From a virus: a DNA stretch of 46,435 bases. Shown in pieces: positions 6,833-16,800 of this stretch. Location: the IMG/VR virus record IMGVR_UViG_3300023110_000062, positions 1-46,435 of that record, one strand, 5' to 3'. The position numbers were made by a program, and so were the translations under genes. The first letter of the stretch is position 1; each line of letters starts with the position of its first letter. The notes under the pieces are model-generated. The model ran no database searches and had not been told where the DNA came from. It worked only from the letters and a program-made list of their open reading frames with translations.

Positions 6833-7798
6833 CTACTTATCGTTACACTCCCTAGAAATTCGGTTTAGAAATGTCTTCAATTCTTCCCAGTTTAGTTCTC
6901 CAAAGCCGTCTTCCATCATTAGTTTCAGCAGTTCGGTCTTGTTGAAGTCACACTCAAAGTTCTCAAGGGCGTGATCGATAATCTGTGTGCCCTGAACGGA
7001 GATAAGCGGAGAGTACAACTGCATCATTTTGTAGTTGTGCTCAATAACTTTTTTTGACTCTCGGATGTTCTTATAGACTTTGAGTTTTGAGTCTGTGTTC
7101 TCGCAGTAATCGAGCAGTTCGTCAATCGTCACGCTTCGCTCTTCGCTCATAAAAGGCAACTTACCTGCAATCGTCTTGAAACCCACACGGCTGACGCCCG
7201 GAAGGTTATCGCTTGCGTCGCCAACCATAGCGCGAGCAAGAGCCATGTTTGTGGGGTGAATGCCGAGAGACTCAATAACGGTCTTCTTGGTCTCAATCTT
7301 ATCTGTGGTTGGGCGATAGACTACTGTCTCTTCGTTGCACAATTGAAGAAAGTCCTTGTCGTTGGAGACGATTACCTTCTGCCAACCCTTGTAATGCGGA
7401 GAGCCACACACATAAGAGATAATGTCGTCTGCTTCCACTCTTTCAAGAACAAGTTGAATGATCGGCATTTGATTGAAATACTCAATCGTTCGCATCTGCT
7501 GCCACAACTTGTTCTGTAGTTCTTCGTTCTCAGTTAGATTGTGAACGGCGCGATTGAGACGCAGAGGCTTTCGCCCTTCCTTATAGCCAGAGTCAAGAGA
7601 CTTGCGCTTTTGAGAACCATTTGGTCCGTCCCAGCAGATCACAATCTCATTTGGTTTGGTCATTCGGACCAACTTCTGTAGGATCTTCATAGATCCCTTG
7701 ATTCCGCCAATCGGCTGTCCGTGATTAGACAGACTCGGATCAACGATAAACGCCCTCAAGAACATGTTGAGGGCGTCAATAACTAGCACACGCTTCAT
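6833..7798 (-). CDS. 5'-3' exonuclease / RNase H, FEN family
   Basis: Removes RNA primers and 5' flaps during lagging-strand synthesis; equivalent to T4 RNase H or the separate 5' nuclease domain of Pol I. The 321-aa protein keeps the family's metal-binding acidic residues: Asp8 (VIDALN), Asp57 (CWDGPNG), Glu122-Asp124-Asp125 (VEADD), Asp147 and Asp149 (SNDKDF), and Asp194/Asp197 (GDASDNLPGV), followed by the helix-hairpin-helix region. Because the polymerase in this phage lacks a 5' nuclease domain, this protein should work with it. ATG 7798 has a GGAGG ribosome-binding site that sits in the 3' arm of a hairpin, and the gene has its own promoter. Confidence 0.88.
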   Translation of the reverse strand: MKRVLVIDALNMFLRAFIVDPSLSNHGQPIGGIKGSMKILQKLVRMTKPNEIVICWDGPNGSQKRKSLDSGYKEGRKPLRLNRAVHNLTENEELQNKLWQQMRTIEYFNQMPIIQLVLERVEADDIISYVCGSPHYKGWQKVIVSNDKDFLQLCNEETVVYRPTTDKIETKKTVIESLGIHPTNMALARAMVGDASDNLPGVSRVGFKTIAGKLPFMSEERSVTIDELLDYCENTDSKLKVYKNIRESKKVIEHNYKMMQLYSPLISVQGTQIIDHALENFECDFNKTELLKLMMEDGFGELNWEELKTFLNRISRECNDK

Positions 7799-7804
7799 AG
7801 TTTA

Positions 7805-7834
7805 CCTCCACCCCATAATCTAACAGGGTGGAGG
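7805..7834 (-). promoter_or_regulatory. Hairpin that sequesters the nuclease ribosome-binding site
   Basis: On the minus strand CCTCCACCC (7826-7834), a 12-nt loop and GGGTGGAGG (7805-7813) form a perfect 9-bp stem. The GGAGG ribosome-binding site of the nuclease gene lies in the 3' arm. No U-tract follows, so it is not a terminator. The promoter -10 element lies in the loop, so mRNA started there would lack the 5' arm. Confidence 0.65.
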
Positions 7835-7845
7835 CTCGCTGTCAA
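7817..7845 (-). promoter_or_regulatory. Sigma70-type promoter for the nuclease gene
   Basis: TTGACA (7840-7845), 17-bp spacer, TAGATT (7817-7822) on the minus strand. The -35 hexamer contains the TGA stop codon of the recA-like gene. Predicted start is near 7810, inside the 3' arm of the overlapping hairpin. Confidence 0.7.
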
Positions 7846-9021: not shown

Positions 9022-9050
9022 ATTATAACACAGAACAACCAAAAGAACAA
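9022..9050 (-). promoter_or_regulatory. Sigma70-type promoter for recA/uvsX
   Basis: TTGTTC (9045-9050), 17-bp spacer, perfect TATAAT (9022-9027) on the minus strand, just downstream of the terminator at 9058-9081. The leader to the ATG at 8954 is about 60 nt, A/T-rich and ends in an AAGGAG ribosome-binding site. Confidence 0.7.
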
Positions 9051-9052
9051 GC

Positions 9053-9081
9053 AAAAACCCCCACCTTTTTAGGGGTGGGGG
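9053..9081 (-). terminator. Rho-independent terminator after the 209-aa gene
   Basis: Minus strand CCCCCACC (9074-9081), 8-nt loop, GGTGGGGG (9058-9065), followed by TTTTTG. The 8-bp GC-rich stem with U-tract lies 13 nt past the stop of the 209-aa gene. Confidence 0.8.
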
Positions 9082-9094
9082 CGATTGACCAAAA

Positions 9095-10661: not shown

Positions 10662-11509
10662 GTGGTTTTTTGTCCTTGAATGAAGTTTGTGTGAGCCACG
10701 CAGAATCCGAAGTCGCTTTCGTAGGGTGACTCGTAGATTCCATAAGTCACATTTTTGAATGCGTTTCGGGGTTTGTTTTTTAGGCTCTCGACCACTCGGG
10801 AATGGAGTTTTCCATCCGTTTCCAAGCGGCTACTGGCTATACATAAATAGTACGCTACGTCGCGATCTTCCTCTAATTTGTAATACCAATTTTCACTTAA
10901 TTTGTCTATCGAAACCATGCCTACAGAGCGGATTCTCTGCACTTCTGAAGGCTTCGTCAAGTTGCCTACGATCGGGGTTGTGTGATCAAACACATTGAGG
11001 TAGTGAACAGCGTAATAAATGCTCTTGTTAATAGCCTCAAAGTATTTTTTTATTGGGATCTCGCCTATTGTCTTCTCAATTGCTGGATTGGAGAAGATAG
11101 TGAAACTATTAAACAATCCAGAGCGGGCATACTCCTGTAGAATGCCGAAAATTGCTCTCTCTTGCAGCCGTAACTCTCCAATCAGTAGGTCTACGTCCGG
11201 TCTAATGTAGAAAATGTCTATCTTCTTGTCTCTTATCTGCTGTAGAATAGCAAGTGTGTAGTTTGCTGAGAATGATGACCCGCAAAGAAACACTTGAACC
11301 CTGTCTTGTATCGCTTCTTTCGTCTTATAAGAGGATAGTGTAGGTGCCTCTTCCTCACAATCCTCTGCTTTTGCTACTCTTGGTAGCTTTCTGGTGTACT
11401 TTGTGTTCTCCTGACCTTCCGAGAACAAAAAACAATTATATTCTTTATGATCCTCAAACAGAGAGACCACATTACAGCCTGCTTCGCCTATGCCTATCAG
11501 CGAAATCAT
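10658..11509 (-). CDS. Divergent tubulin/FtsZ-family protein
   Basis: The 283-aa protein follows the FtsZ/tubulin order of elements. Residues 3-13 (SLIGIGEAGCN) match the first glycine-rich nucleotide loop; VFLCGSSFSANYT (73-85) sits where FtsZ has its GGGTGTG loop but has lost most glycines; IFYIRPDVDLL (99-109) aligns with the VVTKPF strand; FTIFSNPAIEKTIG (136-149) aligns with the IPNDKLL region including the guanine-contacting Asn141; YFEAINKSIYYAVHYL (156-171) matches the following core helix; GNLTKPSEVQ (182-191) sits at the synergy loop but lacks the catalytic NxDxxD. GTPase activity may therefore be weak or absent. Its ATG overlaps the polymerase stop (ATGA). Homology was judged by eye only. 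Confidence 0.55.
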   Translation of the reverse strand: MISLIGIGEAGCNVVSLFEDHKEYNCFLFSEGQENTKYTRKLPRVAKAEDCEEEAPTLSSYKTKEAIQDRVQVFLCGSSFSANYTLAILQQIRDKKIDIFYIRPDVDLLIGELRLQERAIFGILQEYARSGLFNSFTIFSNPAIEKTIGEIPIKKYFEAINKSIYYAVHYLNVFDHTTPIVGNLTKPSEVQRIRSVGMVSIDKLSENWYYKLEEDRDVAYYLCIASSRLETDGKLHSRVVESLKNKPRNAFKNVTYGIYESPYESDFGFCVAHTNFIQGQKTT

Positions 11510-12696
11510 AATTTCAATTCCTTAAGTTTCCCATAGTTCTTTCCAGCCTTCACATTTGCCATAAAACTACCAAGTTTGTTGTTCTGGAAGATTTCTTTTA
11601 GTTGCGGAACAAGGTGTTTGTCTTCGTCGTGTAGATCCAGAACGATTTCGTCGTGAACAATGAACGCAACGTGTGACTTTGTGCCTCTCAAAGCCTTATC
11701 CAACTCAACAGCGCGGTCAAGTGTGAGATCTGCTGTCGTGCTCTGAATGAGATAGTTGAACGCTCGTCTCTCATCCACCTCAATCTCCCTCCCAAATGGA
11801 GTAGTAACCTTATTATCCTTGTAACTCTCGTTCAGAACCTTGTCTCGGTTGTAGACGGAACCATTGAGAGACATGTCGTTGTTGTTGTAGAACGCCGAGA
11901 AGAACATTACCTTGGCTTCGTCACGATCGACAGGTGTGCTAGCATAAAGATGCCGCATGTTCCAGTGGTGAATGTCTTCCTGTGGCTGCTGGTGTCCAGA
12001 CAGAGCCAAGAATGTTCGGATCTCCGCTCCATTGTAGTCAAGAGAGACAAACCAGTCGTTTGTTGGCTTGATTAGTTCTCGGAACTTGGACTTCAAGGTA
12101 AGGATTGGATTGCTTGTTCTATTGGTCGTCAGACGCCCTGTAACCGTTCCAAAAAGGTTATAGTCAACGTAGGGTGACTTACGATTTATGAGCATTTTGA
12201 TGTCTTCTCGGTCGCTTGTCGTAGTCATTAGATGGCGGCAGCCATCGGCGTTGATCTTGAGACGCTGATAGCGGATCTTGTGAAGCAATTTGTAGATACG
12301 ATCAAGATGATCGTAGTTCGCTGGTTTCTCATAAGTGTCGAAGACGTGTTGGGTAATCTTGTTACGAATCTCGCAGAACTCCATCAAGAAATCTGATGGG
12401 ACGAGATCAAAGAAGCAGTTATCATGCAGATTGATTTTAGCAATCTGAAATGATTTCAGGTATGCCTTGAAAGTCTTCTGTATTTCTGTCAACTCTCCCT
12501 TTAAATACTCAGGGCAGGCACTTTGGAGGTTATTACCTCCAGTATAAAGCCAAGCATATTCAATTCTGTCGTCCTGAACAGAGCCAGTGTACTTCCAAGT
12601 CTTGGTCAGTCCGCTAGGGATGCTGTCGAAATGAAGTTTTCCGTCAACATAAACACCGACACATTCTGACTTGTCGTCAAGTGTCTGGAAAATCAT
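11506..12696 (-). CDS. polA: Family A DNA polymerase (Pol I type), polymerase domain only
   Basis: Replicative polymerase candidate, 396 aa. Visible motifs: TVTGRLT (184-190); motif A SLDYNGAEIR with catalytic Asp220; motif B R258-x3-K262-x3-F266-x3-Y270; motif C VHDEIVLD with catalytic Asp349. Phe266 is equivalent to E. coli Phe762. The Gly that normally follows the motif B Tyr is replaced by Asn271. The first 100 residues do not resemble a 3'-5' exonuclease and there is no 5' nuclease domain; the latter is encoded separately at 6833-7798. T4-type phages usually carry a family B polymerase, so replication and virion modules have different ancestry here. The ATG overlaps the preceding virion gene by 4 nt. 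Confidence 0.88.
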   Translation of the reverse strand: MIFQTLDDKSECVGVYVDGKLHFDSIPSGLTKTWKYTGSVQDDRIEYAWLYTGGNNLQSACPEYLKGELTEIQKTFKAYLKSFQIAKINLHDNCFFDLVPSDFLMEFCEIRNKITQHVFDTYEKPANYDHLDRIYKLLHKIRYQRLKINADGCRHLMTTTSDREDIKMLINRKSPYVDYNLFGTVTGRLTTNRTSNPILTLKSKFRELIKPTNDWFVSLDYNGAEIRTFLALSGHQQPQEDIHHWNMRHLYASTPVDRDEAKVMFFSAFYNNNDMSLNGSVYNRDKVLNESYKDNKVTTPFGREIEVDERRAFNYLIQSTTADLTLDRAVELDKALRGTKSHVAFIVHDEIVLDLHDEDKHLVPQLKEIFQNNKLGSFMANVKAGKNYGKLKELKL

Positions 12697-13886
12697 GTGT
12701 CCTCTCGTAGTCTTTGTGCCTTAACAACATAACTCAAGGATCCTCGGTAGTCAAATGGTTGAGAGATAAAAATCTCAAACTGCCTTAGTGCTTCTCGTAT
12801 ATTTTTAGCACTTGACAAATTTACCACATCGGTTATAATCTGATCTTGAGTGGCTTGAAGGTGTTTTGTTTCTTCTTCTAAAAATCTTAATTTACAATAT
12901 AATTTAATAAAATAACTTTCATTATATAAATTATTAATTTGATCTATTGTATAATTTTTAGGATTAGTAATTTTAGCACCTCCAGAACACTCATCATAAC
13001 TCATTGTTGAATAAGATAAGGAATTATATAATGCTAATAATTGTTGCTTGAAAGTTTGATAGTAGTTATATTCAGTTCGTGTGTAAGCAAAAGTAATGAT
13101 TTCATCAGTTGAGTTATAACCATAGGTTGCTGCATAGGCTTGCATTGCCTCTGAGTCTAAGTCAGCAACTATTCTCCAAGGAGCCAACATATCTACCATA
13201 AAACCAAAAGAATTACAAGCATTTAGATAATACTCAAAGTTTGGAGAGTTTATAAATGCGTCTATTTTTTGTTGATCGTTCTCGTAAGATAAATCTGCTA
13301 TCTCAATTGTGATACCATTTGTCAACATAGGATTAAATTTACTTTTCATAAATCCTGTTTTTGTCAAAGGATAATGTGATAAAGAATTATTACAGAAACT
13401 TTCTACAAAATTAATAAATGTTTCAAAGTCGTAAATTTCAAAATTTCTTTGATTTCTAAAAGTCGTCATGCCCTGAATAAGTTGCGCAACATATTGAGAA
13501 TAGGCTGTATCATGTGTCTGGTAAGCATCAAATGCCTTTAAGTTTGTCAGATATGGATCATTAAGCCTAATACTTCGTATTTGTGTTGCTTTTTTAAACT
13601 GCCTACTTAAATCAAAAAAAGCATCGTGTACAAATCCCATGACTCTTAAGTTAGAACTAGCGCCATCTGTGTTTGCAATTCTTTTAAATACAGTTAAGGA
13701 ATCTCTTGCTTGCATAGATACAAAATTTCTATTTACTTTTCCATACATTAATTTTTCAGCAAAGTTGAAGTTAACTAAGCAAGAGTAATTTTGAGATATA
13801 TCAAAAAGAGTATCTTTATAAATTACAGTTTTATCATACAAATTTCTTGTGCTTTCATTATTTGATTCTTTATAGAAAAAAGACAT
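12693..13886 (-). CDS. Probable baseplate/virion protein, 397 aa
   Basis: No family recognised with confidence. The protein is rich in Asn, Tyr and Phe, with many aromatic residues and no membrane segment or signal peptide. It follows the 1,104-aa-frame hub-like gene after 3 nt and is coupled to polA by an ATGA overlap. Its position at the end of the tail block suggests a baseplate component. The coding sequence is clearly more A/T-rich (runs such as 12890-12960) than polA next to it, so the module boundary between virion and replication genes probably falls at 12.69 kb. Confidence 0.65.
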   Translation of the reverse strand: MSFFYKESNNESTRNLYDKTVIYKDTLFDISQNYSCLVNFNFAEKLMYGKVNRNFVSMQARDSLTVFKRIANTDGASSNLRVMGFVHDAFFDLSRQFKKATQIRSIRLNDPYLTNLKAFDAYQTHDTAYSQYVAQLIQGMTTFRNQRNFEIYDFETFINFVESFCNNSLSHYPLTKTGFMKSKFNPMLTNGITIEIADLSYENDQQKIDAFINSPNFEYYLNACNSFGFMVDMLAPWRIVADLDSEAMQAYAATYGYNSTDEIITFAYTRTEYNYYQTFKQQLLALYNSLSYSTMSYDECSGGAKITNPKNYTIDQINNLYNESYFIKLYCKLRFLEEETKHLQATQDQIITDVVNLSSAKNIREALRQFEIFISQPFDYRGSLSYVVKAQRLREDT

Positions 13887-13889
13887 ATT

Positions 13890-16800
13890 TTATTCCGCCT
13901 CTGATGCTGTGGAAGGGTCACCTGTTGTTGCAGCAGTTGTAGCAGCCGGTGCTGCGGTTGTACCACCGGCTGCAGTTGATGGACTGATACCAGCAGAGAA
14001 AACTGTGCATTTATTGACAGCCTCGGCGCCCACATCTTTACGCTTTGTTTTTATTTTGTTTTTCTCGTATGATCCATCTGCACTAGCCACCCATTGAGCA
14101 ATAATTTGTGTATTGCCATCACCGGGCTTGATTGAATTAGTGCTTTTTATAACCATTAGATAGCCGCCAATGCCATACTTTGTTAAATCTTCATCTGCAG
14201 CGACTGTTGGATCAAAGCCCTTTGGTTCAATATAAATCATAGTACCGGGAAAAGTCTGAGGATTGAAAAAAGTATCTATACTTGCATTGTAAACTTCTCT
14301 CAACTGTGTTAAACCATCATAGCCTTCTTGCTCAAACCTTGTTGTTTTTAAGTACGGTGCATCTGTTCTAGAAAGAACAATGTTTTTGACAATCCCTTTA
14401 TCCTCTCCTAAAGTGTAATGGAACACAGATCTATCTTCATCCACAGACCTAATTCCAGTGTAATCTTGTTCGGGTGAGGCTGACCCAGCATAAAATATAT
14501 TGTAATTTATCATATGTTCAATATCTAGTTGGTTTCTCGGATCGTTTTTTGGACCAGAAATTGCCAATATTGGATATGAATCCGCAGGATCTGCTTTTTT
14601 ATGATCAAAATAGTTTTTTTCCATACCTTTATTTATAATAAGAGTTGTTAAATCATCTTTTGAACCGCTTACTGGTGGTAAAACATTGTAAGCAGTTACC
14701 ACTGTATTATTTAACTTGACTTTTTTATACTTTGTTGAGCTTGGGCACTTAGAGGAGTTCAAAAATGTCAACAAAAGTTCCATTATTAATTCATGTACAA
14801 ACTTTGAAAACGGATAATTTGATAAGTTTCTTGTGTTTATTTTTGAATCTAGAAATGATAAAAAATAGTTAAGACTTATTGGGATATCCCCAAGCGAGCA
14901 ATTGATTGGCTGTGCAGCAGTATTATTTAAAATTAAATTTAAAGGACCAAGCAAAATTCTAGCTTTTTCAAACTGAAGTTTTCTAGTAATGATAGTATTT
15001 TTTGATTTATTAAAGGTTTCTCTTACACTTTCTATTACAGAATCTAATTTGCCGTCTCCACCCTGCTCTTTAATAAATTTAACATATTCAGATGTATCAA
15101 AAGTCTTGTTTTCTAAACTTTCGCTAATGTTATCCATTATTATTTCTAGTATGTCTCCAAGATAATAATATGTAAAAATTGAATCGCTACCTATAGGAGG
15201 CGCATCTGGCGTTGCAGGATTTGATCCATTTGTTTCAGGAGCAGGAGTAGGAGATCCTGAGGCTGCGGGGGCTGAGCCTTCCGAAGGTGTTACCGGAGGA
15301 GCAGGGGGAGGTGGAGGTCCATCTTCATACAAGTTGTATCCTGTGGGATTTTTGTACCACTTTATTAGCTCACTAGGAGGTATTGTAACAACTTTAGTTT
15401 TGCCTTTTTCTGTTAGGTTTTTGTGAATTGAAGCCAAAGATTCTCTTCTAGATTGAAGAACAAATTGCTCATCTGCTGCCGTAAAAGCCTTAAATTGTGG
15501 ATTTGTCTGTAGAGTACACCCTAGTTGTGAGAAGTGATCTAAAAACAACATTCTTATTTGTTTTTCAATTCCCATAGAACCAAAAATATCGTATTCTTGA
15601 GTTCCAAAATAATTTTCCATGTAGGCTTGGTAATCAATCGAAAAAGTCACTGCACCAGTATCATCAAAATCGAATGTATGATTCACAGCGTTTAAATACA
15701 TACTAATTGAAGAATCATAAAGTGCGTCTTTTACCGTTTCACCTAAAGTTCTGATTGTTTCTTTTGAAGCTCCAGCACCCCAGCCAGTTACAACTTTAAT
15801 TCTAAAATTTATAAGGTCAGCATTTTTTCTTTCTTCTTCTGTCGTAACTTTAGCAGGATTTATTGTCCCTGTTTTTAATGCCAAATCAATATATCTAAAT
15901 TTATTTCCGTTTCCATCATCTCTTTCTCGCAGTAAATCGGAGAAAGAAGTGGCATATAAAACCAGCTTCGCTGAAATTGATCTTTTAGCTCCGAAAGGAC
16001 TGATTCCATCATATACAAAATCAAAACTTTTCATACCAACACCAAGCCCACGACCGCCTTGTTGGTCTCCTCTTCTTGAAATAAAAGAATTTAAATCATT
16101 TGCCACATTAGTGTCAAAATTTATTGGTATCTGCTGATCTAAGCCTTTATCAGTTGGTATTACTTTATATAATTTTATACCCGGAACTATTGCTGAAAGA
16201 TCTTTTTCTCGTAAGCCAAATAAAGCCTTTTGGTTTTTACTAACTGCAAGTGAATTAATATAACCAAAACCAGAGCCTTTAGAACAAATTGGTCTGTTAC
16301 CAGATTTTTCGATATATGGCAAAGGTAAGGCTTCGTCTGGTTCAAGTCTTTTATCTACCAAATCTTTTAATATTGAAGTTATGTAACACTGCTCAAAAAA
16401 TACAACATCTTCTGAAAGTCGCTGCACCTCTGAAGCATCTGCCTGTTGCTGATTTTTCTCTGCATCGGCACGAGCAGCTTCTGACATCTTCTTAACTGCT
16501 GCTGCATCTCCTGCGGCAGCTTTAGCAGCAGTACCGTATCCTGTTGAACGCCCCTCGGCAGCAAATGCTATCCGCTCTGTATCAGTGAGACTTGATGAAG
16601 GCTTTGGGGAACCCAGACTTTTTACTGCCATTACATATTCTGTGTTATATTGACCGTCTGAGTAATTTAAAAGAAAGTTCCTTCTAGTGATATAAATATC
16701 AAAAATTTCTTTGACAAGCTTGGTGCTAAAAGTAGGATTTTTTGATTCTGCTTGTTCAAATAACGAGACAACTTTAAGCTCCAAAGGAGTTGTTGGCTCC

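Follow-up and report, generated by a model that had tools for sequence, protein, structure and literature searches.

A putative sigma-70-type promoter nested in a hairpin predicted to hide the Shine-Dalgarno sequence of the gene behind recA in an uncultured phage lineage

Two reviews describe several genes of bacteriophage T4 (e, soc, 49 and I-TevI) as having the ribosome-binding site (RBS) enclosed in a helix on long early transcripts, whereas their late transcripts start where one strand of the helix is left out and can be translated; for e, synthesis from the long transcripts is 100-fold lower (PMC3014915, PMC2988022). Similar combinations of a promoter with a hidden RBS are reported for mobE of phage Aeh1 and for segB, I-TevII and I-TevIII (PMC2988022).

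The transposase genes of IS10, IS50 and IS200 resemble the locus described here by arrangement alone. Davis, Simons and Kleckner reportedly described the protection of IS10 and IS50 from read-through in 1985; in IS10 an inverted repeat is said to hide the RBS, leaving read-through transcripts poorly translated and transcripts of the promoter without one of the arms. For tnpA of IS200 the RBS is described as sequestered in a stem-loop that an inverted repeat of the 5' region forms, with no mention of a promoter nested within it (PMC12594629). A full-text literature search, with most subscription papers outside its coverage, returned no description of a promoter, a terminator and a Shine-Dalgarno sequence (SD) combined in one hairpin.

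Here we analyse a virus record from IMG/VR (IMGVR_UViG_3300023110_000062, positions 1 to 46,435), referred to below, as the whole stretch of 46,435 nt, as the window. Its gene content includes a tail sheath, a major head protein, a ribonucleotide reductase, a DnaB-like helicase, a RecA-like recombinase, a gp32-like protein and a FEN-type exonuclease (FEN). The recA and FEN genes both lie on the minus strand, separated by 43 bp, and between them on that strand the sequence reads TTGACA-N14-TG-N-TAGATT, followed by a 3' arm that contains the SD, the whole element occupying about 50 bases. The relevant features are:

9057-9082, minus strand: intrinsic-terminator-like hairpin before recA, 9 pairs and a T-run (terminator scan)
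9022-9027, minus strand: candidate -10 (TATAAT) of recA, with TG at 9030-9029; read from the sequence, absent from the output of the consensus promoter scan
8954-7842, minus strand: recA-like recombinase (PF00154), the upstream gene; its stop TGA (7844-7842) overlaps the -35
7845-7840, minus strand: -35 hexamer TTGACA (sequence, consensus scan)
7834-7826, minus strand: 5' arm CCTCCACCC, within the spacer between -35 and -10; 7835-7823 counting wobble pairs
7822-7817, minus strand: -10 hexamer TAGATT, preceded by TG (7825-7824); most relatives have TATATT here; forms the hairpin loop
7813-7805, minus strand: 3' arm GGGTGGAGG (sequence, fold)
7810, minus strand: predicted transcription start, 7 nt past the -10 and within the 3' arm, placed by promoter geometry
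7809-7805, minus strand: SD of FEN, GGAGG, the last five bases of the 3' arm, six bases before the ATG
7798-6833, minus strand: FEN-type 5'-3' exonuclease (PF02739; C-terminal PF01367 below cut-off), ATG at 7798

The original prediction had placed a perfect stem around the -10, with the nuclease RBS in its 3' arm and the -35 beyond its 5' arm, and each of these elements proved correct: CCTCCACCC is perfectly complementary to GGGTGGAGG over 9 bp, with 12 nt between the arms. Folded as RNA (-23.7 kcal/mol, z -5.5; 1 of 200 shuffles was as good), the element forms 13 pairs, wobbles included, and its loop coincides exactly with the -10 hexamer. The putative promoter is of sigma-70 type, with a 17-nt spacer and 10 of 12 consensus matches. 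In read-through mRNA the SD of FEN has a predicted probability of being unpaired of 0.000, making it the most buried of the 33 called genes scored, and its predicted accessibility in the promoter's own transcript is only moderate (0.23). A start near 7810, which the -10 spacing suggests in agreement with the original prediction, would leave the 5' arm (7834-7826) outside that transcript, which would begin close to the SD.

We favour, at a probability of roughly 0.7, the reading that this promoter-nested hairpin hides the SD and thereby insulates FEN from read-through. Transcripts begun at recA would carry both arms, CCUCCACCC would fold with GGGUGGAGG, and FEN, its SD hidden, would be poorly translated from such messages. 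Polymerase starting at the element's own promoter would instead make RNA from about 7810, within the 3' arm; this RNA, without the 5' arm, would expose the SD and be translated, tying the dose of FEN to its own promoter. The likely source of the read-through transcripts is the candidate recA promoter, and because the terminator scan reported no terminator-like site in the gap between recA and FEN, the site before recA standing upstream, recA transcripts should reach FEN. The analysis establishes the anatomy of the element, its conservation and covariation, the strand bias of its wobble pairs and the predicted burial of the SD; promoter use, read-through from recA and the size of the translation block are the parts of this scheme that we infer.

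As in T4 e, soc, 49 and I-TevI, the SD is predicted to lie in a helix on upstream transcripts and the gene's own promoter would yield transcripts without the 5' strand; geometry, covariation and conservation all fit such an SD-sequestering nested promoter, supporting the likeness to T4 e that had been proposed at the outset. The T4 genes are driven by late promoters (TATAAATA) and so switch between early and late, whereas the window has a TTGACA/extended -10 promoter whose -10 is itself the loop. The T4 late promoter is absent from the element, whose promoter reads TTGACA-N17-TAGATT with TG (TATATT or similar in relatives), and we do not class the element as a T4 late-gene switch because its promoter is of sigma-70 type and those of T4 are late. 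Also unlike the T4 late-promoter genes, it precedes a replication nuclease. The genes mobE, segB, I-TevII and I-TevIII encode homing endonucleases, whereas the element studied here stands mostly beside recA and is followed by FEN in some loci and by other genes elsewhere. The logic is therefore one already known; new are the lineage, the host-type promoter, the -10 as loop, and the retention of the element beside recA whatever gene follows. A form of control described chiefly for T4 late genes and mobile endonucleases would thus extend to an uncultured phage lineage, a replication gene and a host-type promoter, with comparative evidence that is unusually clean. If the reading is true, crowded phage genomes can set a strong promoter right behind a gene without upstream messages adding to the dose of the next, and the element offers a ready-made, compact insulated promoter for tests on plasmids.

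Interrogation of viral_contigs with the FEN sequence retrieved 80 loci, from which two with the FEN start missing (L054 and L062) were dropped, so that the close-relative set comprises the window and 78 loci, 79 in all; L081, a copy of the window, was excluded from all sets. TTGACA-N38-42-ATG precedes FEN in 51 of the 79, in 26 distinct sequences, 25 of which contain the stem. The exception (L055/L056), a TTGACA-N17-TACATT match without a stem, was for that reason left out of the 25-row alignment. In these rows, chosen for holding TTGACA, the hexamer is intact throughout (25/25), and the G and T before the -10 and the T, A and T at its positions 1, 2 and 6 are invariant. Over ten pairs, 97.6% of the pair cells are standard, against 49-61% paired in slid registers. 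Four pairs have changed on both sides, in seven such cells, a count as high as which was found in none of 500 shuffles: CCTCCACTC/GAGTGGAGG, CCTCCAGCC/GGCTGGAGG, CCCCCACCT/AGGTGGAGG and CCTCCTCCC/GGGAGGAGG. On the FEN tree these compensated changes fall on four separate branches (L029; L035+L037; L040; L046+L048+L051). Uncompensated stem mismatches also occur in the window's clade (L015, L017, L026, L040 and L047).

The stem accompanies the promoter even where a gene other than FEN comes next or the spacing from recA varies. Many of the 28 loci lacking the FEN-adjacent form carry the element directly behind recA and before a different gene. Searching with 14 RecA sequences brought in a further 77 loci, and the recA stops examined came to 156 including the window; four were too short, leaving 152 testable. 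A promoter lies at -8 to +60 of the recA stop in 129 of these and is missing from 23, in 12 of which a nested promoter-hairpin stands further down, behind an extra gene. Because many loci were one contig fetched twice, the 129 promoters were grouped into 64 clusters, 61 of which have a 17-nt spacer. Stem letters vary between lineages (CCTCCACCC, GCCCTCCTAC and CCCTCCGATT among others), and over the 64 clusters the duplex between spacer and 3' side averages -18.6 kcal/mol for cognate against -12.6 kcal/mol for non-cognate combinations (0 of 20,000 permutations). The original prediction would have been refuted by a lack of conservation of the complementary arm in related phages; the arm is conserved, as seen both in the pairing of the close relatives and in these stronger cognate duplexes, and the covariation that it had proposed to look for is present.

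Sixty clusters have a recognisable SD, which is predicted to pair with the spacer (P > 0.5) in 52 of them. The predicted median probability of an unpaired SD is 0.00 for read-through RNA, 0.33 for shuffled spacers and 0.46 for the promoter's own transcript. In the other eight (L059, L066, L072, L078, L104, L111, L122 and L128) the promoter is kept and the SD is unburied. The pattern used recovered no SD in four clusters (L073, L126, L156 and L157); the promoters of L073 and L156, within coding sequence, look false. FEN follows recA with no promoter-hairpin between them in L060, L065 and L156. Given the clusters without burial, and the absence of the hairpin from these three loci and from L055/L056, insulation or separate control of FEN is common rather than essential.

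A promoter-like match alone is no rarer than chance (2 in the window, against 3.9 in shuffles), and the weight of the promoter call accordingly comes from its conservation. The stem is more distinctive: a scan of the window for nested stems found 9 bp only at the recA-FEN site, the others having 6-8 bp, and this was the sole site at which, in our judgement, an SD and a start codon are suitably placed. In a related 191-kb contig (the record of L031), 58 TTGACA-N16-18-TAnnnT sites were scanned for pairs around the -10; the recA-FEN site has 13, ten of them Watson-Crick, and the other 57 have at most six Watson-Crick pairs. Stems on this contig were scored by place, since shuffle z-scores are misleading for C-rich spacers.

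An alternative that we consider rather unlikely is that the hairpin is an intrinsic terminator built around a promoter, which ends recA transcripts and buries the SD as a by-product of overlap. With Rho-independent terminators the element shares a G+C-rich stem and, in sister lineages, a T-run: beyond the window's clade, T makes up on average 0.69 of the bases that follow the SD (29 clusters), against 0.31 for 48 other SD-bearing genes of the same locus group. By our own reading, L126 and L157 have the stem followed by a T-run with the likely SD beyond it, and terminator-like hairpins were noted by eye between recA and FEN in distant relatives (Microcystis phage Mel-JY01 and LR756508). The window's own site differs from such terminators in holding a promoter and an SD and in having no T-run, the bases 3' of its stem being TAAACT; the terminator scan reported nothing there, and the T fraction of its clade (0.36, 20 clusters) compares with a background of 0.28 (15 genes). 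Because T-rich bases follow the SD only outside the window's clade, the hairpin may serve for termination as well as masking in sister lineages, and in the window's clade most likely for masking alone. RBS masking is accordingly our best reading for the window's clade, and perhaps only half of the story for the family.

Translational coupling, in which the ribosome finishing recA would open the hairpin so that FEN is translated from the joint mRNA, we regard as improbable. The window's 5' arm begins 7-10 nt past the recA stop, close enough to be reached by a ribosome terminating there, but over the 52 hairpin clusters this distance ranges from 2 to 48 nt, the arm always lying between the -35 and the -10. 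This combination of a variable distance and a fixed place in the spacer points to the promoter, not the terminating ribosome, as the constraint; moreover, the structure persists behind other upstream genes, its place in the promoter being what stays constant.

It is very improbable that the dyad acts as DNA, as the operator of a regulator or as a cruciform exposing the -10, with no role for an RNA hairpin. The dyad does hug the -10 exactly, and in a relative 6-bp dyads also surround the -10 of some tRNA promoters, where there is no SD to hide. However, the arm letters differ widely across lineages, unlike a protein site, and the 3' arm coincides with the SD in the 52 of 60 clusters noted above. 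Within the stems, G-U and A-C combinations, scored symmetrically, stand at 35:4 in the window's clade, 45:5 in the others and 80:9 in total (counts in which related rows are not independent), an excess unexpected for a DNA dyad and one that points to RNA of the coding direction. Chance complementarity of a C-rich spacer to a G-rich SD, without function, is scarcely credible, even though CCTCC opposite GGAGG takes just five bases and a modest CCTCC excess occurs elsewhere (see below), given the compensated changes and the permutation tests.

We advance, as a tentative proposal at clearly less than even odds, that these phages use a compact class of self-insulating promoters, roughly 50 bp long: a single hairpin overlying a sigma-70 promoter would end or silence upstream messages and start a translatable one, and the module would travel with its promoter instead of with a particular gene and recur, at low frequency, even in phages lacking these genes. 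In such a class the 5' arm would be the spacer between -35 and -10, the loop would hold the -10 and the 3' arm would be the SD, often followed by a T-run, with pairing kept while the letters turn over. Generality was assessed by comparing CCTCC in the spacer with all SSWSS words in viral_contigs. Among the matches listed, loci without recA, FEN, dnaB or gp32 homologs have CCTCC at 9 of 82 sites against 2.6 expected, possibly an undercount since further CCTCC loci could not be told apart; and the 25 CCTCC sites overall, again among the matches listed, exceed permuted sites in extra pairs (equalled in 32 of 5,000 permutations). We claim no general phage rule, because the CCTCC excess is modest. 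One locus without a homolog of these four genes, L193 (7059-7102, minus strand), carries an almost perfect nested hairpin (TCCTCCTAAGAC..GTCTTAGGAGGATTTTTTATG) of some 17 pairs, together with a T-run. Two further candidates were set aside: a CTAGGT/ACCTAG or CTGGGT/ACCCAG stem at the dnaB promoter of relatives, since the window's own dnaB promoter has no such stem, and a conserved gp32-leader hairpin, suspected in relatives and unconfirmed by pattern search.

Several observations lie outside this argument. Comparison of the window with Rfam gave no family at gathering scores, and ARAGORN found no tRNA in it. In the region 11506-13886 (minus strand) the DNA polymerase A match is restricted to a 396-aa ORF; the next ORF upstream, of 397 aa, overlaps it by 4 bases and matches no Pfam family, so that two genes may share the polymerase between them. 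A second hairpin (7750-7776, minus strand), of 11 pairs including wobbles, falls within the beginning of the FEN coding sequence, some 22 nt past the ATG; at least 11 pairs are kept in 46 of 54 close relatives, but it overlaps a conserved protein motif.

In L019 (3077-4000), 924 bp separate the recA stop from FEN, and the hairpin-promoter is followed, at the position of the FEN ATG, by an inserted ORF that by eye resembles a GIY-YIG homing endonuclease (MKSGIYQIKNLTNNKIYI). Short sequences with a common end in L009, L044, L045 and L052 look like remnants of this ORF. In L063 (1744-1800) and L064, ATC seems to be the start codon of the gene behind the hairpin, as aligned by eye with the GTG, TTG and ATG starts of relatives behind GGAGGGCTTT; start codons behind the hairpin in other relatives appear to be GTG, TTG or perhaps CTG. 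The only match of the RecA query in the GTDB collection, L358 (CP070664.1), lies in a WOR-3 metagenome-assembled genome and is probably phage DNA in the bin; WOR-3 was not accepted as host, since a single genome_contigs match in a metagenome bin proves no host.

The record of L031 carries, in L167-L170 (contig 33-55 kb), a closely packed row of strong, near-identical promoters (TTGACA-N17-TACATT), roughly one per small gene. In L168, from the same record, a short hairpin lies within about 5-17 nt upstream of most tRNA genes, and for those at 16187 (Met), 17367 (Leu) and 18771 (Pro) the promoter -10 lies in the loop between 6-bp arms (CCCTCC, CCTCTC and CCCCTC), with no SD.
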